Of a stretch of 42,414 bases of DNA, positions 2,731 through 40,419 are shown one piece after another (positions within the stretch are counted from its first letter, which is position 1; each line of letters starts with the position of its first letter). A program made the translations under genes and the position numbers. The stretch comes from a virus. The notes below the pieces were generated by a model. It ran no database searches, was not told the DNA's origin, and saw only the letters and a program-made list of their open reading frames with translations. Location: IMG/VR virus record IMGVR_UViG_3300020202_000136, positions 1 through 42,414 of that record, one strand, 5' to 3'.

Positions 2731-2745
2731 TTTTTATCTCCTTTA

Positions 2746-2777
2746 CCAAGCCACACCTTGCCACACCGCGCCATACC
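2746..2777 (-). promoter_or_regulatory. Leader array with GG every 5 nt (CC on plus strand), copy 1
   Basis: On the plus strand CC dinucleotides fall at 2746, 2751, 2756, 2761, 2766, 2771 and 2776, seven in a row in exact 5-base phase. On the minus (message) strand this reads as repeats such as TATGG, TGTGG and CAAGG. It lies directly upstream of the ribosome-binding site of the gene at 2401-2730. A longer array of the same type lies before the VRR-NUC gene at 38541-38897. It could bind DNA or RNA; its role is inferred from position only. Confidence 0.6.
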
Positions 2778-2842
2778 CAAAAAACCTAACCTGCCCGCAA
2801 CATTTCGCGTTTTACCGTCGATGAAACCCTGCCCAGCCGTCA

Positions 2843-15993: not shown

Positions 15994-16548
15994 TCTGTTT
16001 CTCCTGGGTCATGCCGACGTGCGTAATAAACAGATTGAATACCTGGGATTCCATCACGCTGAAATCTCCTTCTGGGTCGACGAGTTCCGCGGGAGTCCGC
16101 CCATACTTCTGAGCCATAAAATAGATGGCAACAGCTTTACTACGATCGAAAAAAAAAGCCCTTTCAGCCCGCGTAGGCGGCGCGTGGAATGGTCCCAAAT
16201 CGCATAGTAGAGTTGAACGGCGACGTCCAAATCCCTGAATAAATCATCCATCGTCAAAGATCCCCCGCCTGCCGTGTCCCCAAGGCGCGGAGCAACCAGA
16301 CCGGCCTGGATCACGAGCCTCATGTCCTCGGTCATTTTTTCGATCGTTTGCTTTGCGTTGTCTTGGGGAGGCGGCGGGGTTCCGCGCTTTGACTGAAAAT
16401 CAGTAAAAAGCGACGGGATCTTGTCCGACGGAAAATCGAGCAACGGATTAATTTGGCGTATGGTGAACGTTACGCCTTTAATCGTTACTCGTGTATGGCG
16501 GTGCAACCGAGCTTTGATGCGCTCGGGTCCATCAGACCGAAACCACAT
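15983..16548 (-). CDS. Frameshifted tail assembly chaperone (G-T type fusion)
   Basis: This is the product expected if ribosomes slip by -1 in the T9 run at 16149-16157 while reading the gene at 16054-16548. They then continue in the frame FFFDRSKAVAIYFMAQKYGRTPAELVDPEGD to the stop at 15983, for about 188 residues. Long-tailed phages nearly always make a short and a frameshifted long chaperone from the gene just before the tape measure, as in lambda G and GT. The second frame has no good start of its own and ends 11 bases inside the tape measure gene. Confidence 0.78.
16054..16548 (-). CDS. Tail assembly chaperone, short form
   Basis: A 164-residue unshifted product (MWFRSDGPERIKARLHRH, VTFTIRQINPLLDFPSDKIP, MTEDMRLVIQAGLVAP, DDLFRDLDVAVQLYYAIWDHS). 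It lies between the tail tube and the tape measure genes, which is the place of the G-type chaperone that coats the tape measure during tail assembly. After the slip site the frame reads SIVVKLLPSILWLRSMGG, which looks less natural than the shifted frame. Its start is adjacent to the tail tube stop. Confidence 0.75.
   Translation of the reverse strand: MWFRSDGPERIKARLHRHTRVTIKGVTFTIRQINPLLDFPSDKIPSLFTDFQSKRGTPPPPQDNAKQTIEKMTEDMRLVIQAGLVAPRLGDTAGGGSLTMDDLFRDLDVAVQLYYAIWDHSTRRLRGLKGLFFSIVVKLLPSILWLRSMGGLPRNSSTQKEISA
16149..16157 (-). promoter_or_regulatory. Programmed -1 ribosomal frameshift site (T9 run)
   Basis: On the minus strand the zero-frame codons are GGG CTT TTT TTT TCG. The T TTT TTT heptamer is a canonical X XXY YYZ slippery sequence, and a -1 slip enters the frame GCT TTT TTT TTC GAT. 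The place just upstream of the tape measure gene matches that of known tail-chaperone frameshifts. Confidence 0.78.
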
Positions 16549-17579
16549 TAGTAAGACGCAATCTCGTTTTGAAACGTAATGCCGATGTCTTTTCCGGTCG
16601 TGGTGTCCGGATCGTCGACAACCACGTCGAACGGGATCTCTGAAACCAGGATCTCGTTCGGGCTGTTCATGATCGGGTCGGATCCCACGTAAAACACCTT
16701 CGGCAGCCGGACGGTCATTTCGTAATTCTTGGCGACGGAAGAACTGCTCGTAATTTGAGCGCCCTGAAAGAACAATTCGACCGCGCCTTGCGTGGCTTGA
16801 ATGAAGCGGTTATAGGTGGTCGATGTATCGAACCGCTGTCGAACGGAGAAACTAATGTCTCGTTTCGTCGCCGGAATGACGGAATAAACCGCCGATCCCA
16901 ATTCGCGGGATTCCGGGCCGGTAGCGAAGTTGTTATTCACGGTTAATTCGAATCCGAGAATCGGCTCCTCCGCGGTCGACGTGCCAGCGTTCGTCTCATT
17001 CGCCGCATAGCGGTATTTTCCTTGGACAAAGGTAAACGGCAACACCGTGGAGATGCTCAGGTTGCCCGAAATGTCGTCCGACTGGAGCGTCGAATCCTTG
17101 AAGACCATTTCAGCCGTTAGCCGGACCGGTTCGTTGACCGCCGCGGCAATCCGGAGGCTGTTCACGCGGCCGCCCGAATACCGCCAGGTGAGCGTATCGC
17201 CTTTGCGAACGTTGAAGGAGAGTGACGCGGGCGCGGTGTTGAAGTTCCCCGCCGTCACGCTATGCGTATAGGTGCCCCCGACGCTTGTTACTGACGAGGC
17301 CACGCCCCCACCCATCGCCGCAGCCACTAACAAGACCGACTCCTGCGGATGGAGGTACGTTTCGAGCGTTCCTCCCGCCGTTTTTTCCAGCGTCACGCGG
17401 CGGTTGTAGCCACGATTGCTACCGATGGCGTTGATCTTCATGCTCCGCACATCCGTGCGGAATGAGCAGGACAGGGCCTCTACGGCAGTGGTAGCACTGG
17501 CGTAGGTGCCAAAACTCGACTCTTTCCCCAAAGCAACGTATGACGGTACGACCGGTGAAGCGCTTCCTCCTACTGCCAT
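16548..17579 (-). CDS. Major tail tube protein
   Basis: A 343-residue protein. The beginning (VPSYVALGKESSFGTYASATTAVEALS) matches the phage tail tube family, in which a G-x-E-S-x-x-G-T motif opens the beta barrel. Later beta-rich segments (RVTLEKTAGGTLETYLHP, GTYTHSVTAGNFNTAPASLSF, PILGFELTVNNNFATGPESREL) fit. It polymerises into the tail tube around the tape measure. GGGAGG precedes the ATG at 17579, which overlaps the DUF115-like gene by 10 bases. No sheath gene accompanies it, hence a non-contractile tail. Confidence 0.85.
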   Translation of the reverse strand: MAVGGSASPVVPSYVALGKESSFGTYASATTAVEALSCSFRTDVRSMKINAIGSNRGYNRRVTLEKTAGGTLETYLHPQESVLLVAAAMGGGVASSVTSVGGTYTHSVTAGNFNTAPASLSFNVRKGDTLTWRYSGGRVNSLRIAAAVNEPVRLTAEMVFKDSTLQSDDISGNLSISTVLPFTFVQGKYRYAANETNAGTSTAEEPILGFELTVNNNFATGPESRELGSAVYSVIPATKRDISFSVRQRFDTSTTYNRFIQATQGAVELFFQGAQITSSSSVAKNYEMTVRLPKVFYVGSDPIMNSPNEILVSEIPFDVVVDDPDTTTGKDIGITFQNEIASY

Positions 17580-18553
17580 AAGAATTCCTCCCTTGCTTTA
17601 TCGAAGGCGGCTTTCGCGGCCACATAGGACGCATAACCGCTTCGCGTAATTTCGTACAGATTTTTGATTTGGTCCCGCGACTCCTTGCGCGGACAGATGG
17701 CCGCTAATTCCCGCTCCAGCGACGCTTTGCGCGGCACGTCCAGCAGTCCACGTCCCGAACAATTAAAGACCGGCAATCCTCGAAAAGCGGTGAGGTACTG
17801 AAGCAACCAGCGAGCCGAAAACATGAGGTTGTGGCTGGTAAAGACATAGTCGCCATTCATGTCGAGATTTGTGATCTGCTTCATGTAATGGCACTTCGGT
17901 TTTGGGTTCATCCATGCGTAATAGTTGCCTTCCGGCCGCCAGGAATAATCGAACCCGACAAGCAGATATTTTTCATAGCCGCCCCAATTTCGTTGTTGTG
18001 TCTCATCCGAGCGGGTCCAAAAAACCACCATGGCATTAGAGACATTCGAACTGGCCGGAATCATCGTCGTACCCGGCCCCATGATCGGCTTGAATACCTC
18101 TTCCGATTCGATGGCGTCGCGGTTGATAAAAAAGTATTTGTCCCCCAGCCAGGTCTTTGTCCAGAACAAATTGGCATAACACGATGCGATCAATTTCACG
18201 TCGCGCGTCTCGAGAACATAGGGTTCGAGATAGTGCGCGGGAATGTTGGTGTCGCAAATCATCACGTAATCCGCTTTCAGGCCCTTGTCGAGCAATGGCC
18301 CGAATCCCTTGTCACAGGTCATAAGGTCGTAACGATCCCGATATTTCTTAAGGATATCGATCTGGCCCTCGAGAGACGCCCCCATCGCGGCAATGACAAG
18401 AACTTTTCCTATCCCAGAATTTTGCAGGTCTTCCGCGTTGAGGCGCGGCGTTTTCGCGTTCTCTCGGCTGAACGGGATCCAGCGTTTTTCTCCAAATTGG
18501 CTAAACACGCTTAGACTTTGTTTTTTAACGTCGGTGTAGGTAAGTTGTCCCAT
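17570..18553 (-). CDS. DUF115/MptE-like Rossmann protein inside the tail gene cluster
   Basis: A 327-residue protein. Residues about 49-110 (KVLVIAAMGASLEGQIDILKK, then MTCDKGFGPLLDKGLKADYVMICDTN) match the core of the DUF115 family (6-hydroxymethylpterin diphosphokinase MptE-like), in which a glycine-serine-leucine turn and a final aspartate line the active site. Later PASSNVSNAMVVFW and YLLVGFDYSW also fit. The family includes Maf-type enzymes that attach nonulosonic acid sugars to flagellin, and pterin kinases. Here it lies between the tail terminator-like and tail tube genes, an odd place for an enzyme, and it has overlapping junctions, so it is expressed with the tail. A role in glycosylating virion proteins is my inference. 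Confidence 0.62.
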   Translation of the reverse strand: MGQLTYTDVKKQSLSVFSQFGEKRWIPFSRENAKTPRLNAEDLQNSGIGKVLVIAAMGASLEGQIDILKKYRDRYDLMTCDKGFGPLLDKGLKADYVMICDTNIPAHYLEPYVLETRDVKLIASCYANLFWTKTWLGDKYFFINRDAIESEEVFKPIMGPGTTMIPASSNVSNAMVVFWTRSDETQQRNWGGYEKYLLVGFDYSWRPEGNYYAWMNPKPKCHYMKQITNLDMNGDYVFTSHNLMFSARWLLQYLTAFRGLPVFNCSGRGLLDVPRKASLERELAAICPRKESRDQIKNLYEITRSGYASYVAAKAAFDKAREEFLWQ

Positions 18554-18555
18554 AA

Positions 18556-28411: not shown

Positions 28412-30058
28412 TCAGCTAGGAAGAGGGTTTCTTGCTTCTTCGTCTGGGGTGATTCTTGCCTCTCCGTAGAGTAGGCCGAAGGTTTGCGAGGTATGTAATC
28501 TGCCCCGTAACATCAGGTAGCATTGATTCGCTATGGCCGCGGCAATCACGAGGTCATCATGCTTACCGGGCTCTGCTTCAAGTTTGCCATCTGTATTGGT
28601 GAAAATCAAGGCCTCTGTTAAAAATTCTTCGTCAAAACAGGACCATTCGGGTTGAAACGTGTTTTCGTCCTCTTCGGTATTGCCTTCCAAAGCCATTTTT
28701 AAGGCGTCACACATGATCGCCTTTGACGCTTGGGTCGTTTCCCATCCCCATTTACGGATTCTTCGCTGATTCGACTTTTCTAATACTTTCCGCGTTTCGG
28801 TCTTCGTCTCGTAAAGGTTCGGATACTTATGGACTTGCAGAAGCAATTCCAACACGGCCAGCCCGTGATTGTTACGCTCGATCGCCAGTAGGGCCTTATT
28901 AAAATAGCGGCCCCATCGGTCACACACGCGGGCGAATTCGTCGACGGCCACATGGGCTTTATACCGGAAAACGATCCGACGGCAATTCACGCATAGAAAC
29001 ATGAGCGCGGAGTAATCGCCGTCGATTCCTTCCGCGACGTCCCCCCCGGCACAAAAGCGGTGCCCTTTATGCCGGTCGATGTCTTCCCACAAGATGTATG
29101 CGTCCGTAGCGGTCGCGGGCGGGTTCTTATAGTTGTGATCGCGGGCTTCTTCGAGCAGGACGGAGAGTTTCTTCCCGTCGAAAAACGGGTTCCCGCTGGC
29201 GAGAAACGCCTCGCGGTCGTTTTCCGGGTATTCCTGCGGAAAATCGGCTTTCAGTTTAACCTTTGTGAGACGACGCCAGAGAATCTGTTCATCGGTCATC
29301 GTCACGCCATATTCCCGAAGCGCGGCCTCCGCGAGCCGTTGCTCCTCGGCGGTTCTCTGCAACGTCATCCCATTTAGCGGAATGGCGTAATCGTCCTGTA
29401 TGAACCAGGGATAAAAAGCCGCTTTAAACTCGGTCCTGCCGAGTTTGGCGTCCATGTAACTGGCATACCCGTGATTTCCGACCCCATTCGCCGTGGATTC
29501 TATGGTGACATTCGACCCGCGCGACACGGCGGCTAACGTGGCCGCGACGTCTTTCTCGTCGCAGTAGCAATATTCCGACACTAAAAGATTGTGCAATGTC
29601 GCCGAGCGGATGGACAGCGACGCAAAAATCCGGCTCCCGTTTGGGAAAACCAATTCCGTCAGGTTGTCTTTGATCAGCGGCGGGCGATATTGGTCGGGCA
29701 TGTTTTCATACGCGACGCGGATAATAGACATGAGGTGCCCGAGCGATTCCCATTTGTGAGCCAGGACCCCGGTCACGGTGTTTTCGTGAAAGAGGCTTTC
29801 GTCGAGATAATAGATCAGCCAGAACGTGGAGACCCCGCCTTGACGGTATTTCAAGATCCATTCGCGGATCGGACGCTTCTTCCCAATGCCGTCGACAATG
29901 CGCCGCTGAATCGCATTCATCTTCAGCGGTGCCATTCGTTTCGTTTCTTTATGGACGACTTTGTAAAGATTTTCGATGCGCCAGAGTTTATTGCCGAGCG
30001 TCCGCGCCGTCCGGAGAGGGATGTTAGGTAGCTTGAGAGGTGTTGGTTCCTGATTCAA
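28412..30058 (-). CDS. terL: Terminase large subunit
   Basis: A 548-residue protein. The ATPase has a deviant Walker A (KYRQGGVSTFW, about residues 69-79) and a Walker B (LLVSEYCYCDEKD, about residues 158-170). The nuclease has GGDVAEGIDGDYSALMFL near 345 and a final DDLVIAAAIANQCYL near 510, supplying the acidic metal-binding residues of an RNase H-like fold. It cuts and pumps DNA through the portal. Its start overlaps the small-subunit gene by 35 bases, in the usual order. Its 3' end overlaps the extended portal frame. Confidence 0.92.
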   Translation of the reverse strand: MNQEPTPLKLPNIPLRTARTLGNKLWRIENLYKVVHKETKRMAPLKMNAIQRRIVDGIGKKRPIREWILKYRQGGVSTFWLIYYLDESLFHENTVTGVLAHKWESLGHLMSIIRVAYENMPDQYRPPLIKDNLTELVFPNGSRIFASLSIRSATLHNLLVSEYCYCDEKDVAATLAAVSRGSNVTIESTANGVGNHGYASYMDAKLGRTEFKAAFYPWFIQDDYAIPLNGMTLQRTAEEQRLAEAALREYGVTMTDEQILWRRLTKVKLKADFPQEYPENDREAFLASGNPFFDGKKLSVLLEEARDHNYKNPPATATDAYILWEDIDRHKGHRFCAGGDVAEGIDGDYSALMFLCVNCRRIVFRYKAHVAVDEFARVCDRWGRYFNKALLAIERNNHGLAVLELLLQVHKYPNLYETKTETRKVLEKSNQRRIRKWGWETTQASKAIMCDALKMALEGNTEEDENTFQPEWSCFDEEFLTEALIFTNTDGKLEAEPGKHDDLVIAAAIANQCYLMLRGRLHTSQTFGLLYGEARITPDEEARNPLPS

Positions 30059-30455
30059 TTTGGCTGTCCACGACGTGCGAGTTACCGCGTTCCTGTTCTT
30101 CGATTAAGCGCACCAGCATCAGTAACGCTTGATACTGCGACTGGCCGTTGACGTTTTCTTCCGGCATGGCGGCCCGGCCCCATCCACGTTCTGCTAACCA
30201 CATCGCCGCCTCCATCCGGTATTTCAACGCAAATTTGCGTTGTGGCGTCAGTTTCCCCGAAAAGACGTCGTACATGAATTTGACGATCTCCGCGCCATCC
30301 TTGGTTTTCTCGCGGATCAGGGCGTTGAGGCCTTTAGGTCGGCCGCCAGGGTTTCCCGAGGCTCCTTTCGGGAACCAATGGGCCTCTTGGCGAAGTTGCG
30401 CTTCCGTTTTAACCGGCGGCGGCGATTTCGGGTGTTCCGGAAGCGGATTGTCCAT
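30024..30455 (-). CDS. Terminase small subunit-like (DUF5681-type)
   Basis: The start at the ATG at 30453-30455 (MDNPLPEHPKSPPPVK) gives 143 residues; an ATG at 30479 is also possible and neither has a clear ribosome-binding site. FPKGASGNPGGRPKGLNALIREKTKDGA is the DUF5681 signature common in genes just before terL, and the helical middle (KFMYDVFSGKLTPQRKFALKYRMEAAMWLAERGWG) fits a DNA-recognition subunit. It overlaps the methyltransferase end by 47 bases and terL by 35. Confidence 0.75.
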   Translation of the reverse strand: MDNPLPEHPKSPPPVKTEAQLRQEAHWFPKGASGNPGGRPKGLNALIREKTKDGAEIVKFMYDVFSGKLTPQRKFALKYRMEAAMWLAERGWGRAAMPEENVNGQSQYQALLMLVRLIEEQERGNSHVVDSQIESGTNTSQAT

Positions 30456-31770
30456 TAGAGGGTTTGAAAAGAGGATCATTCGGCACGAGTTGTATGCGCC
30501 CTTCGCTTTTGGCTTGGAGGAATAAGTTCTCCTTTAACTGAGCGGTCGCCCGTTCATCCCACGCGGGCATATCGGTGGCGATCGCGCAAAGGTAGCGAAT
30601 GCAATCGCTCCAGAGCATGGGGTTCATCAGATAGGCCTGTTCATACGCCAGCATGGCTTTTTTGGGATCGCCTAAGAGTTTCTGGCAATGCCCGATTTTG
30701 ACGAGAATATCCTCGTTCGGGCGGTTCTCGTGCACCCATTCAAAATGCGTTAAGGCGTCGCGGTATTCGCCCCGCTGGTAGAGCCATTCGGCATAGGCCG
30801 CGCGGGTCCGCGCGTTATTCCCCAGAAGTTTTAAGGCCTCGGGCCAGAGGTCCGCTTGCTTGTCCGGCGATTTGCCGTTTACGCCCATAATTAGGTTAAT
30901 CCACGCCTCCGGAAATGCCGCCCAGGCATTGATCGCTTCCCGAAATTTTCCTTGCCGGTACAGATCAATGGCCGCCTTGATCGCTTTGATTTTCGTCGCT
31001 TGCTCTTCGTATGGTTCGGGCGGGTAAGGTAGCAGCGGTTCCTCGGGTCGTCGCTTCCGGAGGAAGTAGGTTTGACCGTATTGCGTGAAATTCTCTTTCT
31101 CGATCACTAGCCCTACTTTTTGAAGCAGTTTTTTAAGGGACACATCCGTAAAAACGTTGATATGGTCTTTATGAAAATGATGCTCAAAACTGATAATCGG
31201 GCCGCCGCTCGATTCCTCGGCCCAGACGAGCCAGCGGGGGGTCGATACCAGCATGCGCCCATCGTCTTTCAGAAGCGAGACATAATGAGCCAGTTTTTTA
31301 TCCGGTTCAATCATGTGCTCGAGGACATGGTAAATCGTAATCAAGTCGTAGCGGTGTTTTGTTTCGAGTTCTTCAGTGACCGGCACGCCGTAATAATGTT
31401 CCGCGAAGCGCCGATAGGTGACGGTGAATTCGCAGGCAGTCGCCCGCTGGCCGATCGAACGTAACCAGCCCGGGATGTACCCAATCGCACATCCCACATC
31501 GCCGCAGATAAGGCCTTTGCGGTCGCCAATCCAGGGTGCTAGCCATCGTTTCACATAGTGGAGTTTGTGCATGGACGTTACGACGTTCAAGTGGTTCGGC
31601 TTGGGCCGGTATTCAAAGCGGTAGTAATTCCGCATTTTCTCTTCGGCTTGCGGATCGACGCGGTAACAGATGTTCCCGCACGTTTTGCAGACCATCAATT
31701 CGTTTCCATCTTGTCGCAGGTCTTTTAGAGAGTAAAAGTTCTCGTCGGTTTCACAGACGTAGCAGATCAT
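30409..31770 (-). CDS. Class I methyltransferase with N-terminal zinc knuckle and C-terminal TPRs
   Basis: A 453-residue protein. It begins with CYVCETDE and VCKTCGNICY, a four-cysteine zinc site as in sugar C-methyltransferases. Then the SAM-binding core follows (LICGDVGCAIGYIPGWLRSIG, about residues 87-107; DLITIYHVLEHMIEPDKKLAHY; GRMLVSTPRW). The last 170 residues contain TPR-like helical pairs (YRQGKFREAINAWAAFPEAW, QRGEYRDALTHFEWVHENRPN, LGDPKKAMLAYEQAYLMNP). The domain mix is typical of enzymes acting on glycans or glycoproteins. An AAGGAG site precedes the ATG, which follows the previous TAA directly. A role in modifying a sugar added to the virion is inferred from its neighbours. Confidence 0.78.
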   Translation of the reverse strand: MICYVCETDENFYSLKDLRQDGNELMVCKTCGNICYRVDPQAEEKMRNYYRFEYRPKPNHLNVVTSMHKLHYVKRWLAPWIGDRKGLICGDVGCAIGYIPGWLRSIGQRATACEFTVTYRRFAEHYYGVPVTEELETKHRYDLITIYHVLEHMIEPDKKLAHYVSLLKDDGRMLVSTPRWLVWAEESSGGPIISFEHHFHKDHINVFTDVSLKKLLQKVGLVIEKENFTQYGQTYFLRKRRPEEPLLPYPPEPYEEQATKIKAIKAAIDLYRQGKFREAINAWAAFPEAWINLIMGVNGKSPDKQADLWPEALKLLGNNARTRAAYAEWLYQRGEYRDALTHFEWVHENRPNEDILVKIGHCQKLLGDPKKAMLAYEQAYLMNPMLWSDCIRYLCAIATDMPAWDERATAQLKENLFLQAKSEGRIQLVPNDPLFKPSNGQSASGTPEIAAAG

Positions 31771-32169
31771 TTAGCGCATCTCCTTATTGGCGTGGTTTGT
31801 GCTCAGCTGGGCGATGTGATTCACGTAGGCGACCAGCAAGTTGACATATTTCGCCGTCACCGGTTCGCCGAGGTGGAGCGGTCGAAGTGTCGAGGACGGC
31901 TCGAGCGTCTCTGAAATCCAGGGATCTTTCCATGCTTCCAGGCCATGGTTGCGGGCTTCCTCTGCCGATCGGAGCACGGCCCCGCACCAGCATTTCGCGG
32001 TTTCTCCGTCCCACAATGCCACGCCTTTTTTATCCATCGCGCGGACAAAATCGATTAGCCGTTGCGCCCGCCCTTTGAATTCGTCGGTGTAATTCCCGCT
32101 GGCCGAGAGTTCCGCGGCGGACTCTTTAATCAGTCCGGCGAACGTATCGAGATTGATTTTGTTAAGCAC
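31771..32169 (-). CDS. Unknown late protein (132 aa)
   Basis: The GTG at 32167-32169 (MLNKINLDTFAGLIKESAAELS) overlaps the previous TAA by 8 bases and has GGAAA upstream; an ATG at 32196 is the alternative. The protein is helical, with FVRAMDKKGVALWDGETAKCWCGAVLRS in the middle containing CWC but no second pair. It ends VAYVNHIAQLSTNHANKEMR. No family is recognised. Confidence 0.55.
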   Translation of the reverse strand: MLNKINLDTFAGLIKESAAELSASGNYTDEFKGRAQRLIDFVRAMDKKGVALWDGETAKCWCGAVLRSAEEARNHGLEAWKDPWISETLEPSSTLRPLHLGEPVTAKYVNLLVAYVNHIAQLSTNHANKEMR

Positions 32170-32410
32170 GGTATTTTTTCCACATTCGAATGCCATGAAG
32201 GATGCCCTGTTTAATCCGGTCGATATGCTCTTTTTCGTGCAGGGCCGGAATGAGGCCGACACCGGGAATGTTGAGCGGCTGATACTGCAAGCGACTCTGT
32301 ATCCGGAACGTTTCGCCTTCGTAAAGGCAACTAACTTCGACTATGGCGTCGCCGTAGCGGTCATAGACAACGGTTTCCTGCCATGGGAGCGATTCAGCCG
32401 TTAAGGTCAT
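32162..32410 (-). CDS. Small beta-rich late protein (82 aa)
   Basis: The ATG at 32408-32410 (MTLTAESLPWQETVVYDRYG) overlaps the previous TGA as ATGA, which decides between this and an earlier in-frame start at 32518. The sequence has beta-rich VEVSCLYEGETFRIQSRLQY and a helical end (IDRIKQGILHGIRMWKKYR). Its function is unknown; it lies in the modification/head region. Confidence 0.6.
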   Translation of the reverse strand: MTLTAESLPWQETVVYDRYGDAIVEVSCLYEGETFRIQSRLQYQPLNIPGVGLIPALHEKEHIDRIKQGILHGIRMWKKYRA

Positions 32411-32616
32411 TCGTGAATGGACGTCTTCGCATTGGACAGAACCCAGATAAACAGCACCTTGGCCGCCGATTCCCATTCGCTCGAGAAGACGCCTGATTTC
32501 GTGGAGGCCGAGACGCATCGACGGGTCAGCTTGTCAAACATTTCCGCTTTCTTATCGGTAAGCCAGGGGATCGTCGGCAACGGGTCGTTGTAGTCCCATT
32601 TCGCGCGTCTAGGCAT
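32407..32616 (-). CDS. Small unknown late protein (69 aa)
   Basis: It starts at the ATG at 32614-32616 (MPRRAKWDYNDPLPTIPWLTDKKAEMFDKL), overlapping the DAHP-synthase-like TAG by 8 bases. A longer in-frame extension exists within that gene but is cysteine/arginine-rich. The protein is basic at the start and has a hydrophobic segment (AAKVLFIWVL). No family is recognised. Confidence 0.6.
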   Translation of the reverse strand: MPRRAKWDYNDPLPTIPWLTDKKAEMFDKLTRRCVSASTKSGVFSSEWESAAKVLFIWVLSNAKTSIHE

Positions 32617-33451
32617 GCAGGAGCCCCCACAGTCGCCGCGTTTTTTCCACCAGCCGCGGGAGATCGGCGAGCGGAAACGCCTGGTCCGCATCGGACAAGG
32701 ATTGATGCGGTGCCGGGTGTGTTTCGATGATATAGCCGTCGGCTCCCGCCGACAGGCCCGCTAAGGTCATCGGTTCGACGAGATCCCGCCGCCCGGTCCC
32801 ATGGCTGGCGTCGACCAATACCGGAATACCGGTCATTTGTTTAATGGCGGCGATGGTCGATACCGAGAGATCCCACCGCACATGGTTCATGTGTGTGGAG
32901 CTTCCCCGTTCGACGAGAATCGGTTTGCACCGGCCCCGACAGAGGTATTCTGCCGCGCCGAGAAACTCGTCGAGCGTAGATCCCATATGACGCTTGAGCG
33001 TCACGGGTTTTTCGAGGTGCCTTAACTCGGCGAGGAGCGCATAATCTTGCATATGTCGGGCGCCCACTTGAAAAGCGTCCGCATATCGATCGATATATTC
33101 GACATCCCGCACGTCCAGCACTTCCACCACAATGCGGAGGCCATGACTCCGCGCGATTTCCGCCCACCGCTCGAGCAAATGCTTTTGCAACCCGAACACA
33201 TGAGGGGGGTACGTTCCGGCACGAAAGACACCTCCACGCATCCATTGAATAGCAAGCGTTTTGAGTGTCTTCGCGACTTCTTCGATTTGCTCGGGCGATT
33301 CGATAGAACAAGGACCGGCAATGATAAGGGGAACACGAGCGTCCTCCTGTTTAACACCCAGCACGGTAGGGTAGTTTGGTTGCGGACCCCAGACACGCCG
33401 CGCCGTGAAAGGCGGCGAAACATGAATATTCCATCCCGTGGGATTGTCCAT
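32609..33451 (-). CDS. DAHP synthase-like (type I-beta) enzyme, divergent
   Basis: A 280-residue protein starting at the ATG at 33449-33451, sharing a base with the previous TAA. It matches the class I-beta 3-deoxy-heptulosonate-7-phosphate synthase family: IIAGPCSIES (metal cysteine), LKRHMGSTLDEFLGAAEYL (lysine), ILVERGSSTHMN, PVLVDASHGTGRRD (metal histidine) and IIETHPAPHQSLSDADQAF (metal glutamate and aspartate). The usual substrate loop GGAFKPRTSP is instead GGVFRAGTYPP, losing the lysine and arginine that bind phosphate, so the acceptor sugar or the reaction may differ. DAHP and KDO-8-P synthases share this fold; both condense PEP with an aldose phosphate. It lies near a CMP-sugar synthetase-like gene. 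Confidence 0.8.
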   Translation of the reverse strand: MDNPTGWNIHVSPPFTARRVWGPQPNYPTVLGVKQEDARVPLIIAGPCSIESPEQIEEVAKTLKTLAIQWMRGGVFRAGTYPPHVFGLQKHLLERWAEIARSHGLRIVVEVLDVRDVEYIDRYADAFQVGARHMQDYALLAELRHLEKPVTLKRHMGSTLDEFLGAAEYLCRGRCKPILVERGSSTHMNHVRWDLSVSTIAAIKQMTGIPVLVDASHGTGRRDLVEPMTLAGLSAGADGYIIETHPAPHQSLSDADQAFPLADLPRLVEKTRRLWGLLHA

Positions 33452-33780
33452 TAGTAGGCCGTATCCGCGTAGAATCGAGACCACTGCTCTTGAATCAATA
33501 CTTTCTGGCCGACAGGGCTAAGAAACGGATTGTCTTTGCGGATCTTCTCTTTTTGATAGCGCACAAATTCCTTATGGAGAGTACGCTCCAATCGACGGGC
33601 TAACACGACGCCTTCCAGTTGCGAATTGAGATCGTAAGGAAACGCGCGGGCATACGCGGCGGTCGCCTGCTGAATTTCGCGTAGCCAGGTCCGGAGTGCT
33701 TGGATGGATTGGCCGCGCACGGCCCGATAAATTTTCCAGCGCGGGGTTTTTACTAAAGCCAGGAATTCCGCATGCGTCAT
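33451..33780 (-). CDS. Unknown helical protein after the endolysin (109 aa)
   Basis: The ATG at 33778-33780 (MTHAEFLALVKTPRWKIYR) overlaps the endolysin TGA as ATGA. It is strongly helical and basic (IQALRTWLREIQQATAAYARAF, LERTLHKEFVRYQKEKIRKD). It could be a lysis regulator or structural protein; nothing diagnostic is seen. Confidence 0.6.
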   Translation of the reverse strand: MTHAEFLALVKTPRWKIYRAVRGQSIQALRTWLREIQQATAAYARAFPYDLNSQLEGVVLARRLERTLHKEFVRYQKEKIRKDNPFLSPVGQKVLIQEQWSRFYADTAY

Positions 33781-34100
33781 TTCGAGAGGCCCTCCCATTG
33801 CACCTGCGGTAAATGTGACGCGATATCCAGATGAATATGGCGATCATAAAATCCCACCCGGACAAATCCGGCGCGGCCCGCCCCGTAGGCGATCCGTTGC
33901 GCGAGAATAATGTCCCCCTTGTGCCCGACGTCGATCGCCTCGCCGCTATAATGTGCGGACGCTTTCACGTGTTCGCCCTTGGTCGTGCTAGTCAGTCGCC
34001 ACGGCACGCCGGACAACCGCCGTCCAATATCGGCCCGGTCCACGAGCGATTTTTTGAGGCCCTTCACTTCCTCGTCGGTAAAGTACAGCCATTGGCCCAT
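33777..34100 (-). CDS. Peptidase M15-like endolysin
   Basis: A 107-residue protein. STTKGEHVKASAHYSGEAIDVG carries the SxHxxGxAxD zinc motif, and FYDRHIHLDI carries the HxHxD metal-binding end, as in peptidase M15 endolysins that cleave peptide bonds in peptidoglycan. It is short, consisting of a bare catalytic domain with no wall-binding part, as is usual in phages of Gram-negative hosts. GAGGGGGA precedes the ATG at 34100, which shares a base with the upstream TAA. No signal peptide is seen, so it needs a holin. It lies far from the holin candidate at 10036. Confidence 0.75.
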   Translation of the reverse strand: MGQWLYFTDEEVKGLKKSLVDRADIGRRLSGVPWRLTSTTKGEHVKASAHYSGEAIDVGHKGDIILAQRIAYGAGRAGFVRVGFYDRHIHLDIASHLPQVQWEGLSK

Positions 34101-35440
34101 TAATCCCCCTCGATAATACGCCGCCGGATCGCTTCGCGTTCAGCGAGGTGATTCAGGCTCATCGATCCGTGATGGCGGCGATAGAAAAAGGCCGGATGTT
34201 CCCAGTACCCGATTTTGAAGCGGCCTTGTAGGCGTTTGTAGAGTTCCAAGCTGTCGTAATGGCGTAACCCATCGCGGAACCGGATGTCGTTCAGCACCGA
34301 CCGCTTAAAGAGGGTTCCCCCGGCATGGTGATGGACGCTTCCCGCGGTGACGGTCCAATTGCCTGCCGTCATCGTGAAATCGCCAGATTCGTCTGTTTCG
34401 ACGTAGCCGGGATACACCGCGTCGAATCCGTGTTGCTCGGCATAATCGATCATGCGCTCCACGGCTCCATGTAAGAGCTTGTCGTCAGCATCGAGGCGCA
34501 TCACGTATTTTCCGCAAGCTGCGGAGATGGCGACGTTCGAGCTTGCGGCTAACCCGATATTTCGCTCGTTAATAATGACCTTCAGGCGCGGGTCCGTGGC
34601 GAATTTGGCGATTTCGAGAAGCGTGTTATCTGTCGATCCATCGTCGACGACGATATACTCAAAAAACCCTGCGCCATTGTGCAGAACAGTCTGCATAGCT
34701 TCGGAGACAAATGGCTCCGCGTTATAGGCGCAGGTGTATAGGGAGACAGTCGGTAAATGGTTGATGGCTAAGAGCCAGGGACGTTGATCAATGAACCGAC
34801 AAATATCGTCGCACGAGGCGAGAGCGCCCAGCTTTCGAAGGACAACCTCCAAAAACTGGGCGTCAGCAGGGTAGTCTAAGGTCATCCGGTAGGTGCGGCA
34901 TATGGCAGGGCGCGGGCGGTATACAAACTCTTTGGCGGGATTCACGCCTCGAACAAAATAGCTGATAAATTCGGTCGGCTCTTTGTGGTTATTGGCGGCG
35001 CTCAGTAAGGTAGCCAGATCAATCACTTCGACCCCGGCCCCCTCGACAATGTCAGGAGCCCAGACATAGGAGGCATCTTTTTCGTGCGCCATGGCGATCA
35101 TTTCGACCATTGATTGCGCGTCAATGATCGCGTCGTCGTGCGTGATGCGGACGATATAGGTCGGCGGTTGTCGGAGTTTCATCACGGCGGCGGCCATGCG
35201 GTGCAGAGGTGAATCGGCGACGCCTTGAAAAATGGTGACTTCCGGATACCGCGCTTCATAAGGTAGATAGCCGTCTGCTTCGCCTTGCGGCACCGCGACG
35301 ATAATCGGGATCCCATGCCCGGAGACCCGTTTGAGGATATGCTCGAGGACCGAGAGCCCCGCGATCCGCTTAAACACTTTTCCCGGCAGACGCTTGGACT
35401 GCGGACGGGAACAAATGACGATAACCGCGTCTGATCTCAT
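34100..35440 (-). CDS. Bifunctional SpsF-like cytidylyltransferase / GT2 glycosyltransferase
   Basis: A 446-residue protein. Residues 1-225 are a nucleotide-sugar synthetase of the SpsF/KdsB clan (ICSRPQSKRLPGKVFKRIAGLSVLEHIL with the S-R-L-P-G-K motif, IVRITHDDAIID, YRMTLDYPADAQFLE). Residues 230-446 are a GT-A family 2 glycosyltransferase (VSLYTCAYNAEPFVSEAM, EYIVVDDGSTDNTLLE, YVMRLDADD as the DxD metal motif). The pair would activate a sugar acid with CMP and transfer it, or combine two related steps. The ATG at 35440 overlaps the TGA of the preceding gene. Its presence inside the late operon, with a PEP-condensing enzyme and methyltransferase nearby, suggests an envelope- or virion-modification pathway. 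Confidence 0.82.
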   Translation of the reverse strand: MRSDAVIVICSRPQSKRLPGKVFKRIAGLSVLEHILKRVSGHGIPIIVAVPQGEADGYLPYEARYPEVTIFQGVADSPLHRMAAAVMKLRQPPTYIVRITHDDAIIDAQSMVEMIAMAHEKDASYVWAPDIVEGAGVEVIDLATLLSAANNHKEPTEFISYFVRGVNPAKEFVYRPRPAICRTYRMTLDYPADAQFLEVVLRKLGALASCDDICRFIDQRPWLLAINHLPTVSLYTCAYNAEPFVSEAMQTVLHNGAGFFEYIVVDDGSTDNTLLEIAKFATDPRLKVIINERNIGLAASSNVAISAACGKYVMRLDADDKLLHGAVERMIDYAEQHGFDAVYPGYVETDESGDFTMTAGNWTVTAGSVHHHAGGTLFKRSVLNDIRFRDGLRHYDSLELYKRLQGRFKIGYWEHPAFFYRRHHGSMSLNHLAEREAIRRRIIEGD

Positions 35441-35658
35441 CGACTCCGATGATGTTCACATTGCGCGTGCGGGCAGTTGAACGGGTCAGTCTTTCGCACC
35501 GATTCCATCAGGTAGACGAAATTCGCCAAAAGGCCGAGAATCACGCCGATTAAAAGAATTCGATTCCAGAGAAAATCACGATCGTGCTTGATGTCCGTTT
35601 TCTGTAACGCCGTAATCTCCTCCTGTTGTTTGGCGTCTACTTTATCCATTCCTTCCAT
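35437..35658 (-). CDS. Small membrane protein with C-terminal CxxxxC-H tail (73 aa)
   Basis: The start ATG at 35658 has GGAGGA upstream. An N-terminal helix with charged heptads (DAKQQEEITALQKTDIKHDRD) precedes one span (ILLIGVILGLLANFVYLM), then CPHAQCEHH. It may be a membrane-anchored spanin- or holin-accessory-like protein. The function is unknown. Confidence 0.6.
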   Translation of the reverse strand: MEGMDKVDAKQQEEITALQKTDIKHDRDFLWNRILLIGVILGLLANFVYLMESVRKTDPFNCPHAQCEHHRSR

Positions 35659-35842
35659 TGGTTCCTCCTGGTGGTGTGTTTCGGCCTAGTCGGTCCCCGC
35701 GGATCAAATTCATGAGTGTGCGAAAATCTTCGGCGGGTTCGCGGTGCCCGAATTCTTTGACGAAATAGGCTTTGCCGATCACGTCGATGTAGACAACGTG
35801 ATAGCGGTTTGACGTGATCACCCGGATCGTGTAATGGTCCAT
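35642..35842 (-). CDS. Small alpha/beta protein (66 aa)
   Basis: The ATG at 35840-35842 (MDHYTIRVITSNRYHVVYIDV) shares a base with the upstream TAA. The sequence (IGKAYFVKEFGHREPAEDFRTLMNLIRGDRLG) looks like a compact fold with two strands and a helix. The long N-terminal extension of this frame is proline/serine-rich and not coding. No function is known. Confidence 0.6.
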   Translation of the reverse strand: MDHYTIRVITSNRYHVVYIDVIGKAYFVKEFGHREPAEDFRTLMNLIRGDRLGRNTPPGGTNGRNG

Positions 35843-36009
35843 TAGGGCGCGTCCTTGTAGTCCATAATTTGGCGGCGCGCCACCTCGAGCATAAAGAGGG
35901 CATGCGGGGGGCTTCGAAGTGGGCCGCTTACCTCGACGGCTCCCGTCTTGGTATTCCAGGTGATGGTGAGGGTTAGCATCTCGGGGATATCGATAGCCGG
36001 AGAGGTCAT
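35842..36009 (-). CDS. Small coupled protein (55 aa)
   Basis: A 55-codon frame from the ATG at 36007-36009 (MTSPAIDIPEMLTLTITWNTK) to TAA 35842-35844. The start overlaps the TGA of the membrane peptide (ATGA) and the stop overlaps the next ATG (TAATG). The ending HALFMLEVARRQIMDYKDAP is helical. No family is recognised; the junctions at both ends are the evidence. Confidence 0.62.
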   Translation of the reverse strand: MTSPAIDIPEMLTLTITWNTKTGAVEVSGPLRSPPHALFMLEVARRQIMDYKDAP

Positions 36010-36125
36010 TGAAGATCCCCCAAGACGGAGACGACAATATAGAACTGGAGAGTAAACCCGAAAATGATAATGGCGAGGAGGGCGGCGCGGACGATGCGCG
36101 GACCACGACGAAAATAATTTTTCAC
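36006..36125 (-). CDS. Tiny single-span membrane peptide (39 aa)
   Basis: A GTG start at 36123-36125 gives MKNYFRRGPRIVRAALLAIIIFGFTLQFY..., a positively charged tail followed by one span. Its TGA overlaps the next ATG as ATGA. It may be a small holin-type or regulatory membrane peptide, but no test is possible from sequence. Confidence 0.5.
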   Translation of the reverse strand: MKNYFRRGPRIVRAALLAIIIFGFTLQFYIVVSVLGDLQ

Positions 36126-36132
36126 TTAGTTT

Positions 36133-36306
36133 TTAGGCGCTTGGGGGTTCCTCCAGACGGTCGGCCCTGCTCAGTTCCAGCATATGGCAGAGATCGAGCG
36201 CAATCTCCAGATCGGAGATTTCCATCCCCCTTATAAGACGGCCGCTCTCATCCCGACGTAGAATATTCCATCCGGCTTGGCCTTGCTTGACGGCGTAGGC
36301 GCTCAT
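36133..36306 (-). CDS. Small acidic protein (57 aa)
   Basis: A 57-codon gene from the ATG at 36304-36306 (MSAYAVKQGQAGWNILRRDES) to TAA 36133-36135. GGAG lies about 9 bases upstream of the start, and the start overlaps the preceding TGA as ATGA. Its centre (GMEISDLEIALDLCHMLELSRADRL) is an acidic helix. No family is recognised. Confidence 0.65.
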   Translation of the reverse strand: MSAYAVKQGQAGWNILRRDESGRLIRGMEISDLEIALDLCHMLELSRADRLEEPPSA

Positions 36307-36473
36307 GCGACTACTCCGGCCAGCTTATTTAAATTTGCGTTTGGTCCATAGAGAGCACTAGAGACTCGATTATGAGCGGATGCCGCGATTTGTTTAGTCT
36401 CATGCCTTCCACATCGCTGACGGTTCTTCCCTCGTTTTATTGGCGCGCACCATTTGCAACCATGAATCTTCAT
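36303..36473 (-). CDS. Small zinc-binding protein after the radical SAM gene (56 aa)
   Basis: A 56-codon gene from the ATG at 36471-36473 (MKIHGCKWCAPIKRGKNRQ) to TGA 36303-36305. CKWC and RCGRH provide a zinc-binding pattern (C-x2-C...C-x2-H). Its ATG overlaps the radical SAM TGA, and its TGA overlaps the next ATG. It is strongly basic. It could be a partner or substrate of the radical SAM enzyme, or a separate regulator; only position suggests it. Confidence 0.62.
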   Translation of the reverse strand: MKIHGCKWCAPIKRGKNRQRCGRHETKQIAASAHNRVSSALYGPNANLNKLAGVVA

Positions 36474-37483
36474 GCTAGCGACGCCTTCCCCTCACGATCC
36501 TGGACCCAGTCGCGCTCGGGTCGTTTATAAGCCATGTACGACGTGCAGTTTTGGCAAATCTTCGGAGCGGTTCCGAGTCGATTTGCGCGTAAATCTTGTC
36601 GCAAGCGGCGCATCGGCTCACCGTTCCAAATTTGAATAAGCGATTGTTGCGGCCAGCAACCGATCTCTATCTCCTCTGACCAATCGACACAACAGGGCAG
36701 ACAGACGCCGCTAGCCGTCACGACGATGCGTTGCGAGGGATAGCCACAATAAACCCGGTCCCACTTTTCATACGCATTTTCCAAGGCCAGATGTGCGTAA
36801 TGATTTCTGTCAAATGTGAAATGCTCACTGACCTTGATATCAGCGCCAAAGTGCTTTTTGACCTTTTCGATGAACCGCTCATCTTGATTTAACTGCGTGA
36901 TCACCCGTCTTACCCAGAGGTTTGAATGATTCCGGCGACGCATCTCTCCGATCACCTCGAGGGCTCGTTCAAGGTTTCCATTCACGCGAATCTTGGGATA
37001 AATGTCTGGATCCATTGAGTCAAGGGAGACCATGACCTTCGTCGCATACATCAATCCGTCAATCGCGCGATCGGGAGCATTGGCATTGGTGTTGACCAAA
37101 ATTTCATGAAAGGCGGATTTGCTCCGGGCATAATCAAGTATTGTCGAAAACTCTGGATTTAAAGTGCTCTCGCCGCGGAAGTTCATCTTGAGTGCTGGTA
37201 CGCCGAGTGCAGCACATTCGTCGATCAAGCGGATTGCCATTTCGACTGGCATGAATCGCTTTTTGTTCGATCCATCCCAAGCCTTCAAGGTCATGCTCTT
37301 GGCGAAATCCGAATCTCCCCAATAGCACATCTTGCAAGCTAAATTACAGAGCGAACTTAATTCAACGTCGACGTTTAATGGAACGGGAGGATCTTCTTGG
37401 TAGGCTTTCTCCCAAGCATCGCGGTACGCCTGGCGGGTTCCGTAGACCGGCGACACGCACAAGGTGTAACAGATTGTGGCCAC
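36470..37483 (-). CDS. Radical SAM enzyme with SPASM-type C-terminal cluster domain
   Basis: A 337-residue protein. SLCNLACKMCYW carries the CxxxCxxC that binds the AdoMet-coordinating iron-sulphur cluster, and the (beta/alpha) barrel follows (PALKMNFRGESTLNPEF, MVSLDSMDPDIYPKIR). The end has CGYPSQRIVVTASGVCLPCCVDW and KICQNCTSYM, a SPASM-like set of cysteines for auxiliary clusters. Such enzymes modify peptides, alcohols or sugars. The start is a GTG at 37481-37483 inside the palindrome TTGTGGCCACAA, so a repressor bound there would also cover the start. An earlier start in this frame is not visible. It heads the sugar-type gene cluster; the substrate is unknown. Confidence 0.85.
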   Translation of the reverse strand: MATICYTLCVSPVYGTRQAYRDAWEKAYQEDPPVPLNVDVELSSLCNLACKMCYWGDSDFAKSMTLKAWDGSNKKRFMPVEMAIRLIDECAALGVPALKMNFRGESTLNPEFSTILDYARSKSAFHEILVNTNANAPDRAIDGLMYATKVMVSLDSMDPDIYPKIRVNGNLERALEVIGEMRRRNHSNLWVRRVITQLNQDERFIEKVKKHFGADIKVSEHFTFDRNHYAHLALENAYEKWDRVYCGYPSQRIVVTASGVCLPCCVDWSEEIEIGCWPQQSLIQIWNGEPMRRLRQDLRANRLGTAPKICQNCTSYMAYKRPERDWVQDREGKASLA

Positions 37484-39021: not shown

Positions 39022-39095
39022 GCCCTCATCGTCTAGAGGCCTAAGACATCGCCCTTTCAAGGCGAAGACCACGGGTTCGAATCCCGTTGAGGGCA
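39022..39095 (+). tRNA. tRNA-Glu (anticodon TTC)
   Basis: A complete cloverleaf. The acceptor is GCCCTCA (39022-39028) pairing perfectly with TGAGGGC (39088-39094), followed by discriminator A (39095). The D arm is GTC...GAC (39031-39047). The anticodon stem is TCGCC/GGCGA, with loop CTTTCAA and anticodon TTC at 39056-39058. The T arm is ACGGG-TTCGAAT-CCCGT (39071-39087). CCA is not encoded. The integrase gene starts its 3' end 185 bases further on, so this is the likely integration target type. Confidence 0.93.
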
Positions 39096-39279: not shown

Positions 39280-40419
39280 TTACCGTAATTCCACATCCGC
39301 CTGTAAATTCGCTTCGATTTGTTCATTTTCCCTTGCCAAATTATTTGTAGCAACAAACGCCGATTGTCCCTTTTTTGTCCCAGTTGTTGGCGACTTACGG
39401 GGGGCAGCAAGCTCCATTGTGGCCCGCATATGGGCCGGGGAGAGGTGGCTATACCGTTGCACCATACGCAAGGTCTTATGGCCTAACGCCTTGGCAATGG
39501 ATTGCGCGTCCGCGCCCCGCATGGCAGCATGGCTAGCCCAGGTATGGCGCAGGTCGTGAAAGCGGAAATCGACCAATCCGGCCAAGCGAACCGCCGCGTG
39601 GAACCGGTGCAGGAAAAACCCGTGCCGATTGAGCGGTCGCCCGTGATGCGTGAAGATCCAGCCGGTCCGCTGGCTCACGGGAGTTTTTTCTAGCAGTTCG
39701 GTGATCTCGGTCGTCAATTGCACAAACCGGCCCTCTTTGTTTTTTGAATGGGCCGAGGTGATGAGCGCCCAGCCGCGGCGAAGGTCGACGTCCTGCCACT
39801 GAAGCTTGAGGATTTCCCCTTGTCGCATACCGGTATGTCGCGCGAAGAGGATCACGCCCTGAATATCGGGATGCGCGGCATTCATGAGGCGGTAGAATTC
39901 GTCGTCTTCAATGTAGCGGATTCGCTCGTCATCGACTTTTTCGAGGCGATACTCGGCCAGCGGATGGTCGTCAATCATGCGCCATTGGAAGGCTTTCCGC
40001 GTCGCCGCTTTCAGGATGGTCAAATCGCGCCGCAGGCTCGACTTAGAGAGCCCTTTGGTCTGGCGGTAGGCATAATAGCGATCGGCCAAATCCCAGAGCT
40101 CGCTTACCTTGCGGCCCCAGAAGAAATGGCGCATGTACTTAATGGCGTGGTATGTCCGTACGATGCTTCCCGGTCGTTTGGGTTTGATATGCAGCCGGTA
40201 GTATCGGGAGAGAATCTTCGACACCGACACCTCGGCGGTTTTCGGCGTGGCGGCCGCCGCACGGAGAGGATCGAGGCGGCCTTCCTGCACGGCCGCTCGG
40301 TAAGAGGTCGCCCACGCTTCCGCAAGGCGCGCATCGGTCTGTCCCGTGCTGACGTAAACCCGCCGCGCCTTATGGGTGAACCGAAGCCAGTATGTCGCGC
40401 CGCGCTTGTAGAGTCCCAT
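39280..40419 (-). CDS. int: Tyrosine recombinase (phage integrase)
   Basis: A 379-residue protein. The N-terminal half has an arm-binding-like strand region (MGLYKRGATYWLRFTHKARR) and a core-binding domain (SILSRYYRL..., GLSKSSLRRDLTILKAATRKAF). The catalytic domain has the first arginine in ARHTGMRQGEIL, the H-x-x-R in FHDLRHTWASHA, the later LGHKT histidine, and the tyrosine in RYSHLSPAHM. It would integrate the phage into the host tRNA-Glu gene. The start (ATG at 40417-40419) overlaps the excisionase-like gene by 50 bases, so the two are coexpressed. Its 3' end runs towards the tRNA on the opposite strand. Confidence 0.95.
   Translation of the reverse strand: MGLYKRGATYWLRFTHKARRVYVSTGQTDARLAEAWATSYRAAVQEGRLDPLRAAAATPKTAEVSVSKILSRYYRLHIKPKRPGSIVRTYHAIKYMRHFFWGRKVSELWDLADRYYAYRQTKGLSKSSLRRDLTILKAATRKAFQWRMIDDHPLAEYRLEKVDDERIRYIEDDEFYRLMNAAHPDIQGVILFARHTGMRQGEILKLQWQDVDLRRGWALITSAHSKNKEGRFVQLTTEITELLEKTPVSQRTGWIFTHHGRPLNRHGFFLHRFHAAVRLAGLVDFRFHDLRHTWASHAAMRGADAQSIAKALGHKTLRMVQRYSHLSPAHMRATMELAAPRKSPTTGTKKGQSAFVATNNLARENEQIEANLQADVELR
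39365..39382. repeat. 18-bp repeat (17/18), copy B inside the integrase 3' end
   Basis: TGTCCCTTTTTTGTCCCA, matching 39110-39127 with one difference. It lies in the coding region for the last residues of the integrase, 255 bases from the first copy. A paired arrangement flanking the att region fits integrase arm sites or a duplicated end. Confidence 0.55.

Follow-up and report, generated by a model that had tools for sequence, protein, structure and literature searches.

Which product would be made by the sugar-type enzymes that an uncultured tailed phage encodes beside its packaging genes, and where would it be attached? The window, the whole stretch of 42,414 nucleotides analysed here, holds a cassette that may make a CMP-activated, nonulosonate-like ulosonic acid and thereby glycosylate the virion of the phage itself, with the tail tube as the likeliest target. 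We give this reading a probability of roughly 0.6. It rests on sequence comparison and predicted structures, and the sugar, the acceptor and the activity are inferred.

Organization of the cassette

The sequence-only reading of this DNA had placed a radical SAM/SPASM enzyme, a fused cytidylyltransferase-GT2 glycosyltransferase (CT-GT2), a DAHP synthase (DAHPS)-like enzyme and a methyltransferase with TPRs in this region. Pfam profile matches confirm all four at the coordinates first given, on the minus strand.

36470..37483, minus strand: radical SAM/SPASM enzyme, BtrN-like with a single auxiliary cluster, cassette gene 1 (PF04055 1e-12, PF13186 4e-11)
34100..35440, minus strand: cytidylyltransferase (SpsF/KdsB-like)-GT2 fusion in a single ORF, cassette gene 2 (PF02348 3e-10, PF00535 1e-27)
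33777..34100, minus strand: probable endolysin inside the cassette, context only and outside the pathway (by-eye motif SxHxxGxAxD...HxHxD; no Pfam match)
33451..33798, minus strand: small all-helical protein, cassette gene 3 (homologues in the equivalent slot of most cassettes)
32609..33484, minus strand: DAHPS-like PEP-condensing synthase, proposed ulosonate synthase, cassette gene 4 (PF00793, DAHP_synth_1, 9e-48)
30409..31770, minus strand: methyltransferase with an N-terminal four-cysteine motif and C-terminal TPRs, cassette gene 5 (PF13489, Methyltransf_23, 3e-15; TPR 1e-7)
28412..30058, minus strand: terminase large subunit, just downstream of the cassette, context (position between cassette and portal; no Pfam match)
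17570..18553, minus strand: Maf-like (PF01973/DUF115) glycosyltransferase, proposed CMP-ulosonate transferase (PF01973 2e-12)
16548..17579, minus strand: tail tube protein, proposed acceptor, overlapping the Maf-like gene (PF18906 3e-20)

The cassette is followed directly by the terminase and a Mu-type portal, and most adjacent genes share a few bases at their ends, the pattern of a single operon. Since its neighbours serve packaging, lysis and virion structure, synthesis of the sugar would coincide with particle assembly. In contig L002 a GH108-like ORF, recognised by eye, occupies the position matching the probable endolysin of the window.

Recurrence in other phages

The cassette is found, collinear and with its gene order kept, in about 40 further uncultured viral contigs, and this recurrence is beyond chance. 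The module proposed earlier would have been refuted by related phages having the genes singly and in unrelated places. The opposite was observed: the genes stay grouped and keep their order. In L005 and L007 the cassette stands after the tail genes, not before the terminase, and the set is still together. TerL homologues occur in 27 of the 39 cassette/Maf records, and the set is also present in contigs where the terminase is not detectably related.

A search of 50,697 cultured-phage records turned up none with the set, and no description of it was found in the literature, in which only open-access papers were covered. A single-sequence viral scan with the CT-GT2 query gave no matches, whereas alignment-based scans did find relatives. 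No close DNA relative of the cassette was found on plasmids, and the DAHPS-like query found no relative in cellular genomes behind the two patterns used. In the phylum to which an Azospirillum belongs, 398 genomes contained no CT-GT2 fusion at E 1e-60, a weak result without a positive control. Supposed phage matches of the DAHPS-like protein were left out, their identity being below 42% and the better ones lying in records of unclear purity.

Two synthase families share one slot

Among 39 cassettes the synthase slot is filled by a DAHPS-like enzyme in 20 (the type of the window's own cassette), by a NeuB-like enzyme in 17, by both in 2 and by neither in 0. The two types largely replace each other (Fisher 3e-9, kinship ignored). 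The CT-GT2 tree implies 8 synthase changes, at least 4 of them forced by strongly supported branches, and the sisters L018 and L047 (support 100/100) carry different types; the strongly supported independent swaps are only 4 (sign test p 0.125). The NeuB-like proteins match the NeuB Pfam profile at E down to 1e-24 and keep the NeuB motifs. That two different PEP-condensing families occupy a single slot next to a CMP-transferase is a strong argument for the synthesis of a CMP-activated ulosonic acid. Both the ulosonate-synthase and the cytidylyltransferase roles are assigned by family, with activity and substrate inferred.

In the DAHPS-like enzyme the metal ligands C59, H228, E254 and D265 and the PEP residues R143, K164, R165, E192 and R193 are invariant (n=8 sequences). 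Family, metal ligands and PEP site are common to this enzyme, type Ibeta DAHP synthase (1zco, 4c1k) and KDO8P synthase (1fwn), but among solved structures it is clearly nearer DAHPS (3e-76 vs 3e-22). It reaches 66 bits with TIGR01362 (KDO8P synthase) against a cut-off of 314, and far better with the DAHPS profile TIGR01361, where its score of 244 is still under the curated cut-off of 268. Type Ibeta enzymes have KPRTS, the erythrose-4-phosphate motif, whereas RAGTYP replaces it in the phage enzyme and in most of its subfamily. Since the enzyme is DAHPS Ibeta-like and not KDO8P-synthase-like, KDO in the strict sense is an unlikely product. The idea of a "KDO- or nonulosonate-like" sugar, as first suggested, is otherwise strengthened by the slot exchange, by bacterial loci around a radical SAM relative and by a Maf-type fold (see below).

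The Maf-like protein and the tail tube

A DUF115/Maf-like enzyme had also been noticed among the tail genes, and its PF01973 match bears this out, beside the tail-tube gene. The Maf-like gene is present in 44 of 49 cassette-bearing records, and almost all of the cassette phages examined have it immediately upstream of the tail-tube gene. Of 14 phages whose radical SAM relative is only distant (profile A11), none has it. Because it directly precedes the tail-tube gene, these phages probably sugar-coat their own tails. G064 seemed to be a Maf-positive, cassette-free phage but was rejected as such, since the contig stops close to the point at which the radical SAM gene starts in its relatives. 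The link between Maf-like gene, tube and cassette could reflect common descent in one phage group, against which the TerL diversity argues only partly.

A profile search matched the Maf-like protein to the 5MU5 Maf at 1.6e-5, and FlagModPseD was also matched. Its AF2 model (pLDDT 91.7) has Maf 5MU5 as best fold match (Z 22.1 over 253 residues), followed by HPPK (Z 16.1 over 201 residues); CMP-using sialyltransferases match at Z 8-10. Polar and aromatic residues are conserved. At 327 aa the protein corresponds to the central domain alone (5MU5 residues 234-524 in the alignment) and lacks the three-domain build of 600+ residues; thus we call it Maf-like and not a full Maf. The pterin kinase MptE (fold Z 16) likewise belongs to PF01973, which counts against the Maf reading; the fold ranking, Maf over HPPK, disfavours the pterin-kinase reading of DUF115.

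The radical SAM enzyme and the CT-GT2 fusion

The CxxxCxxC motif and the SPASM cysteines of the radical SAM enzyme are invariant in 6 phages, and its best solved relative is BtrN (1e-19). Chromosomal relatives adjoin NeuB+SAF, SpsF-like CT, SDR and PIG-L genes, in nonulosonic-acid loci; at the bacterial locus L119 a PF01973 (Maf-family) gene is also present with the radical SAM relative, CT and NeuB. The CT domain is closest to 6oew, a cytidylyltransferase, and to KdsB among solved structures. The nearest solved structure of the GT2 domain is chondroitin synthase, and SpsA was also matched. GT2 enzymes mostly use UDP- or GDP-sugars, so the fusion of one to a cytidylyltransferase is puzzling and counts against the reading proposed here.

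Proposed pathway and comparison with known systems

In the proposed pathway the DAHPS-like enzyme, or its NeuB relative in sister phages, would condense PEP with an aldose or aldose phosphate other than erythrose-4-phosphate to give a 3-deoxy-ulosonic acid; the family assignment and the catalytic residues are observed, the substrate is inferred. The SpsF-like half of the fusion, judged by its family, would form the CMP-sugar. Tailoring of the sugar, at whatever stage, may be the work of the methyltransferase and of the BtrN-like radical SAM enzyme. The Maf-like enzyme would then move the CMP-ulosonate onto the tail tube, as Maf does to flagellin, the acceptor being suggested by gene pairing only. 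The GT2 half may add or extend a sugar. No aminotransferase, acetyltransferase, 4,6-dehydratase or NDP-hydrolase was found among the scanned window ORFs. Without the first two the full legionaminate or pseudaminate route is not encoded, and the precursor would be host-derived or simpler; with these upstream NulO steps missing we use the label "ulosonate-like" and not that of a known NulO pathway.

In Maf flagellin glycosylation with CMP-legionaminate or CMP-pseudaminate (Campylobacter, Helicobacter, Magnetospirillum), a PEP-condensing synthase, a CMP-transferase, a Maf-fold transferase and the decorated filament protein are encoded together, as in these phages. Maf4 has been put forward as a legionaminyl transferase (PMC9298399). 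The phage set differs in its single Maf domain paired with a tail tube, its synthase that may be DAHPS-like, its CT fused to GT2 and its lack of aminotransferase and acetyltransferase steps. In Bacillus subtilis, SpsE and SpsF are part of the CMP-legionaminate pathway and the GT2 protein SpsA is a candidate transferase (PMC7439481). This Sps pathway shares the SpsF-like CT, the GT2 and the NeuB-type synthase with the phages, whereas the phages have CT and GT2 as one protein and add the radical SAM, methyltransferase-TPR and Maf-like proteins.

In mycobacteriophages, capsid and tail-tube subunits are reported to be glycosylated by a phage-encoded system (Freeman et al. 2023, cited in PMC12619734), which is the likeness to the present proposal. 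Phage glycosyltransferases and host sugar nucleotides are used there, and that system is not known to include a CMP-ulosonate pathway or a Maf-type transferase.

A broader proposal, for which we see even odds, is a self-contained ulosonic-acid system, spread widely through an uncultured group of tailed phages, in which a Maf-type transferase decorates the tail tube in parallel to flagellin glycosylation, with a new DAHPS-derived synthase class repeatedly swapping with NeuB. If true, phages would synthesise acidic, sialic-acid-like sugars themselves as well as attach them, and would have recruited a flagellin-type transfer system for a viral tail. An unrecognised ulosonate synthase class would be hidden among annotated aromatic-pathway DAHP synthases, and phage radical SAM/SPASM enzymes and DUF115 ("pterin kinase MptE-like") proteins would gain a testable role. 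Sugar-coated tails could alter adsorption, decoy shielding or recognition by bacterial defences.

Alternative explanations

The CMP-ulosonate might instead be put on the host surface (lipopolysaccharide, capsule or flagellin), either late in infection or during lysogeny, where it would prevent superinfection or keep progeny from attaching to debris. Transfer would then fall to the GT2 domain, and the Maf-like protein would do another job. The GT2 domain does resemble O-antigen-converting and polysaccharide glycosyltransferases, an integrase gene is present in the window, and phage-borne O-acetyltransferases acting on capsular nonulosonates are a precedent (PMC6586298). However, late expression is expected of a cassette interspersed with packaging and probable lysis genes, no flippase gene was found among the scanned window ORFs, and the Maf-like gene is tied to both tail tube and cassette. 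We hold this explanation to be possible but unlikely. Particles and host surface had both been named as targets at the outset; the sequence does not decide between them, and the constant Maf-like/tail-tube pairing favours the virion, as far as gene order can indicate.

Less probable again is a DUF115 protein that serves the tail as a structural or chaperone-like accessory and is unrelated to the sugar pathway, the association reflecting hitchhiking within one phage group. Co-inheritance is common among tail genes, the gene order around DUF115 is constant, and tblastn found no relative of the tube or of the Maf-like protein in cultured phages, all of which would fit. Yet the protein has a well-defined enzyme fold nearest Maf with its conserved residues, the association holds where TerL kinship is unrecognisable and where the cassette is relocated, and the bacterial locus likewise joins PF01973 to the radical SAM relative, CT and NeuB. 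That the DAHPS-like protein is an ordinary aromatic-pathway enzyme, an auxiliary metabolic gene beside a separate surface-sugar set, we consider very improbable. Its closest solved and curated relatives are indeed DAHPS Ibeta, but KPRTS is lost in most of the subfamily, the TIGR01361 score is below the cut-off, NeuB exchanges with it in the same slot, and no further shikimate gene was found among the scanned ORFs. DNA hypermodification was rejected, no hydroxymethylase or base-modification gene being among the scanned ORFs.

Accessory cassette proteins

The zinc knuckle ascribed to the methyltransferase lacks a Pfam match, but its four N-terminal cysteines C3, C6, C28 and C31 are invariant in 8 relatives. 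The small helical protein is predicted to have five helices (AF2 pLDDT 92), and a fold search gave no match for it. Some cassettes add optional sugar-nucleotide SDR and Ugd-like genes.

Gene content of the cassette

The IMG/VR virus record is 42,414 bp long with a G+C content of 54.9%, and no direct terminal repeats are found in it. The sequence-only reading had placed four enzymes of a candidate glycosylation module before the terminase gene and a DUF115 protein among the tail genes. Pfam searches found all five genes there. The features used below are:

1032-2054, second DNA methylase
16548-17579 (-), tail tube (PF18906)
17570-18553 (-), Maf-like protein (DUF115/PF01973)
28412-30058 (-), terminase
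30409-31770 (-), methyltransferase-TPR protein
32609-33484 (-), DAHPS-like synthase
33451-33798 (-), small helical protein
33777-34100 (-), probable endolysin inside the cassette, M15-type by motif, no Pfam match
34100-35440 (-), CT-GT2, an SpsF/KdsB-like cytidylyltransferase (CT) domain fused to a GT2 glycosyltransferase
36470-37483 (-), radical SAM/SPASM enzyme
39022-39095, tRNA-Glu, complete gene
39280-40419, phage integrase
40611-41840, ParB-N/N6_N4 methylase fusion

The window also encodes a Mu-type portal (PF06074), a Mu-F head protein (Pfam) and RecT. From CT-GT2 through the probable endolysin and the small protein to the synthase, consecutive minus-strand genes overlap, and the methyltransferase gene overlaps a small ORF upstream of terminase. 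This arrangement resembles one late operon, judged from the overlaps without promoter data.

The tRNA-Glu gene adjoins the integrase gene and may be an attachment site or a host remnant. In one relative, L002, a GH108-like lysozyme (by eye) occupies the place of the probable endolysin, and a QueC-like ATP-pyrophosphatase gene lies near the portal (18180-18836). In L006, an inserted homologue of the ParB-methylase (2390-3619) separates the methyltransferase-TPR gene from terminase.

Conservation of the cassette

Three cassette proteins (DAHPS-like synthase, radical SAM enzyme, methyltransferase-TPR protein) were used to scan viral contigs by alignment, together with local HMM searches. About 40 further contigs share one gene order: radical SAM, CT-GT2, (small helical protein), synthase, methyltransferase-TPR. 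In the radical SAM scan, 42 loci matched strongly (at least 190 bits), and 40 of them also show CT-GT2 homology; the contigs of the other two, L019 and L034, stop immediately after the radical SAM gene. About 30 loci whose radical SAM relative is weaker, mostly on short contigs, lack the CT-GT2 fusion and were used as outgroup. L048-L077, a group apart from the cassette carriers, are mostly short viral contigs with a radical SAM/SPASM relative and no fusion; the tested members also lack the Maf-like gene.

The position of the cassette varies, being before terminase in the window and after the tail genes in L005 and L007. Some cassettes have added SDR or UDP-glucose-dehydrogenase-like genes. 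The order is broken in L053, where a NeuB-like gene precedes the radical SAM gene. Elsewhere on that contig (L286, 6590-9016), apart from the CT-GT2 gene, lie an extra SDR, a longer NeuB (293 aa) and a weak cytidylyltransferase match.

The synthase slot

In profile searches the DAHPS-like protein groups with DAHPS Ibeta (3e-76), with KDO8P synthase far weaker (3e-22), and it scores under the curated DAHPS cut-offs. The equivalents of the metal ligands (C59, H228, E254, D265) and of the PEP site (R143, K164, R165, E192, R193) are invariant. In DAHP synthases the KPRTSP segment binds erythrose-4-phosphate. Here it is replaced by RAGTYP, and [RS]AGT[YF]P is retained across most of the subfamily. 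Since this segment is replaced, the enzyme most likely condenses PEP with an aldose other than erythrose-4-phosphate, as far as motifs can tell.

Contigs without a DAHPS-like gene were expected to contradict the reading of the cassette as a sugar pathway; in them the identical slot is filled by a NeuB-family protein that is short, about 225-260 aa, and has no SAF domain, with Pfam NeuB E-values of 5e-10 to 1e-24 and matches to NCBIfam NeuB/PseI. Among 39 cassettes, 20 have the DAHPS-like gene, 17 the NeuB-like gene, two both and none neither. The CT-GT2 maximum-likelihood tree requires 8 changes of state, at least 4 of them on strongly supported branches; the sisters L018 (NeuB) and L047 (DAHPS-like), with support of 100/100, differ in the slot. 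Fisher's test on the exchange gives 3e-9 with kinship ignored. Only 4 independent strongly supported contrasts are available, with 3-4 in the predicted direction and 0 opposite.

A PEP-dependent aldol-type condensation is common to both families. Because they exchange beside a cytidylyltransferase, the comparison points to a shared product class for the two kinds of cassette, putatively CMP-activated 3-deoxy-2-ulosonic acids. Most phage NeuB-like ORFs of loci L013-L044 are short, without the SAF domain found in bacterial NeuB.

Radical SAM and GT2 enzymes

The best solved relative of the radical SAM enzyme is BtrN (1e-19), and the cysteines at the auxiliary-cluster positions match. BtrN oxidises an aminocyclitol alcohol. 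The loci of its chromosomal relatives also encode full NeuB+SAF, an SpsF-like CT, sugar-nucleotide SDRs and a PIG-L deacetylase, and at L119 a PF01973 gene is in the same cluster. To our knowledge, a role for a radical SAM/SPASM enzyme in nonulosonate chemistry has not been described. The bacterial and archaeal loci L111, L113, L119, L124 and L127 have a radical SAM/SPASM enzyme, most of them also NeuB and a cytidylyltransferase.

The GT2 half resembles chondroitin synthase and also SpsA. In B. subtilis, the CMP-legionaminate step is attributed to SpsF, and SpsA is a candidate legionaminate transferase (PMC7439481).

Linkage to the Maf-like tail gene

PF01973 is present in 44 of the 49 cassette-bearing records; four of the remaining five are fragments of 11.9-16.1 kb and the fifth (L039) is a divergent locus. 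In nearly all records examined the Maf-like gene is directly upstream of the tube gene, with the shared order p19051, p18556, Maf-like gene, tail tube. In a reverse search from the Maf-like protein, nearly all Maf-positive contigs of at least 33 kb have the cassette or the radical SAM gene belonging to it; the sole exception ends about where the cassette would start. The Maf-like gene is absent from all 14 contigs whose sole radical SAM relative is a distant one.

Such linkage could reflect merely a shared packaging ancestry. A relative of the window terminase is detectable in most records searched, yet 12 of 39 have no detectable one, including records of 43.7, 40.8, 39.8 and 38.4 kb that nevertheless have both cassette genes and the Maf-like gene. 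Shared packaging ancestry is therefore not a sufficient explanation.

The predicted structure of the Maf-like protein (pLDDT 91.7) best matches the Maf glycosyltransferase 5MU5 (Z 22.1, 253 residues, rmsd 3.5), followed by MptE-type HPPK (Z 16), SteA (Z 11) and CMP-dependent GT29/GT42 sialyltransferases (Z 8-10). Profile searches gave Maf (1.6e-5) and FlagModPseD (1.6e-4). Campylobacter Maf4 is a putative legionaminyl transferase acting on flagellin (PMC9298399).

Proposed pathway

From the gene content, conservation, catalytic motifs, Maf-like predicted fold, slot exchange and linkage, all shown by the analysis, we infer that the cassette would produce a CMP-ulosonate, whose exact sugar is not identified. 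The radical SAM enzyme and the methyltransferase would tailor it, and the Maf-like enzyme would transfer it to the tail tube encoded beside it, in parallel with flagellin glycosylation. Aminotransferase and acetyltransferase genes are missing from the window ORFs scanned, so the precursor would be host-derived or the sugar simpler than legionaminate.

Maf glycosylation is known in bacteria; no description of an ulosonate pathway coupled to a Maf-type transferase in a phage was found in the literature searched. Glycan-bearing subunits of the capsid and the tail tube are known in mycobacteriophages (Freeman et al. 2023, as cited in PMC12619734). A tblastn search of 50,697 phage records found no relatives of the Maf-like protein, tube or methyltransferase, no CT-GT2 match over 80% of length and one partial radical SAM match; the window portal, by contrast, has relatives in 898 of these records. 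Uncultured Caudovirales have proteins with folds similar to the Maf-like protein; their annotations go no further than 'MptE-like' or uncharacterised.
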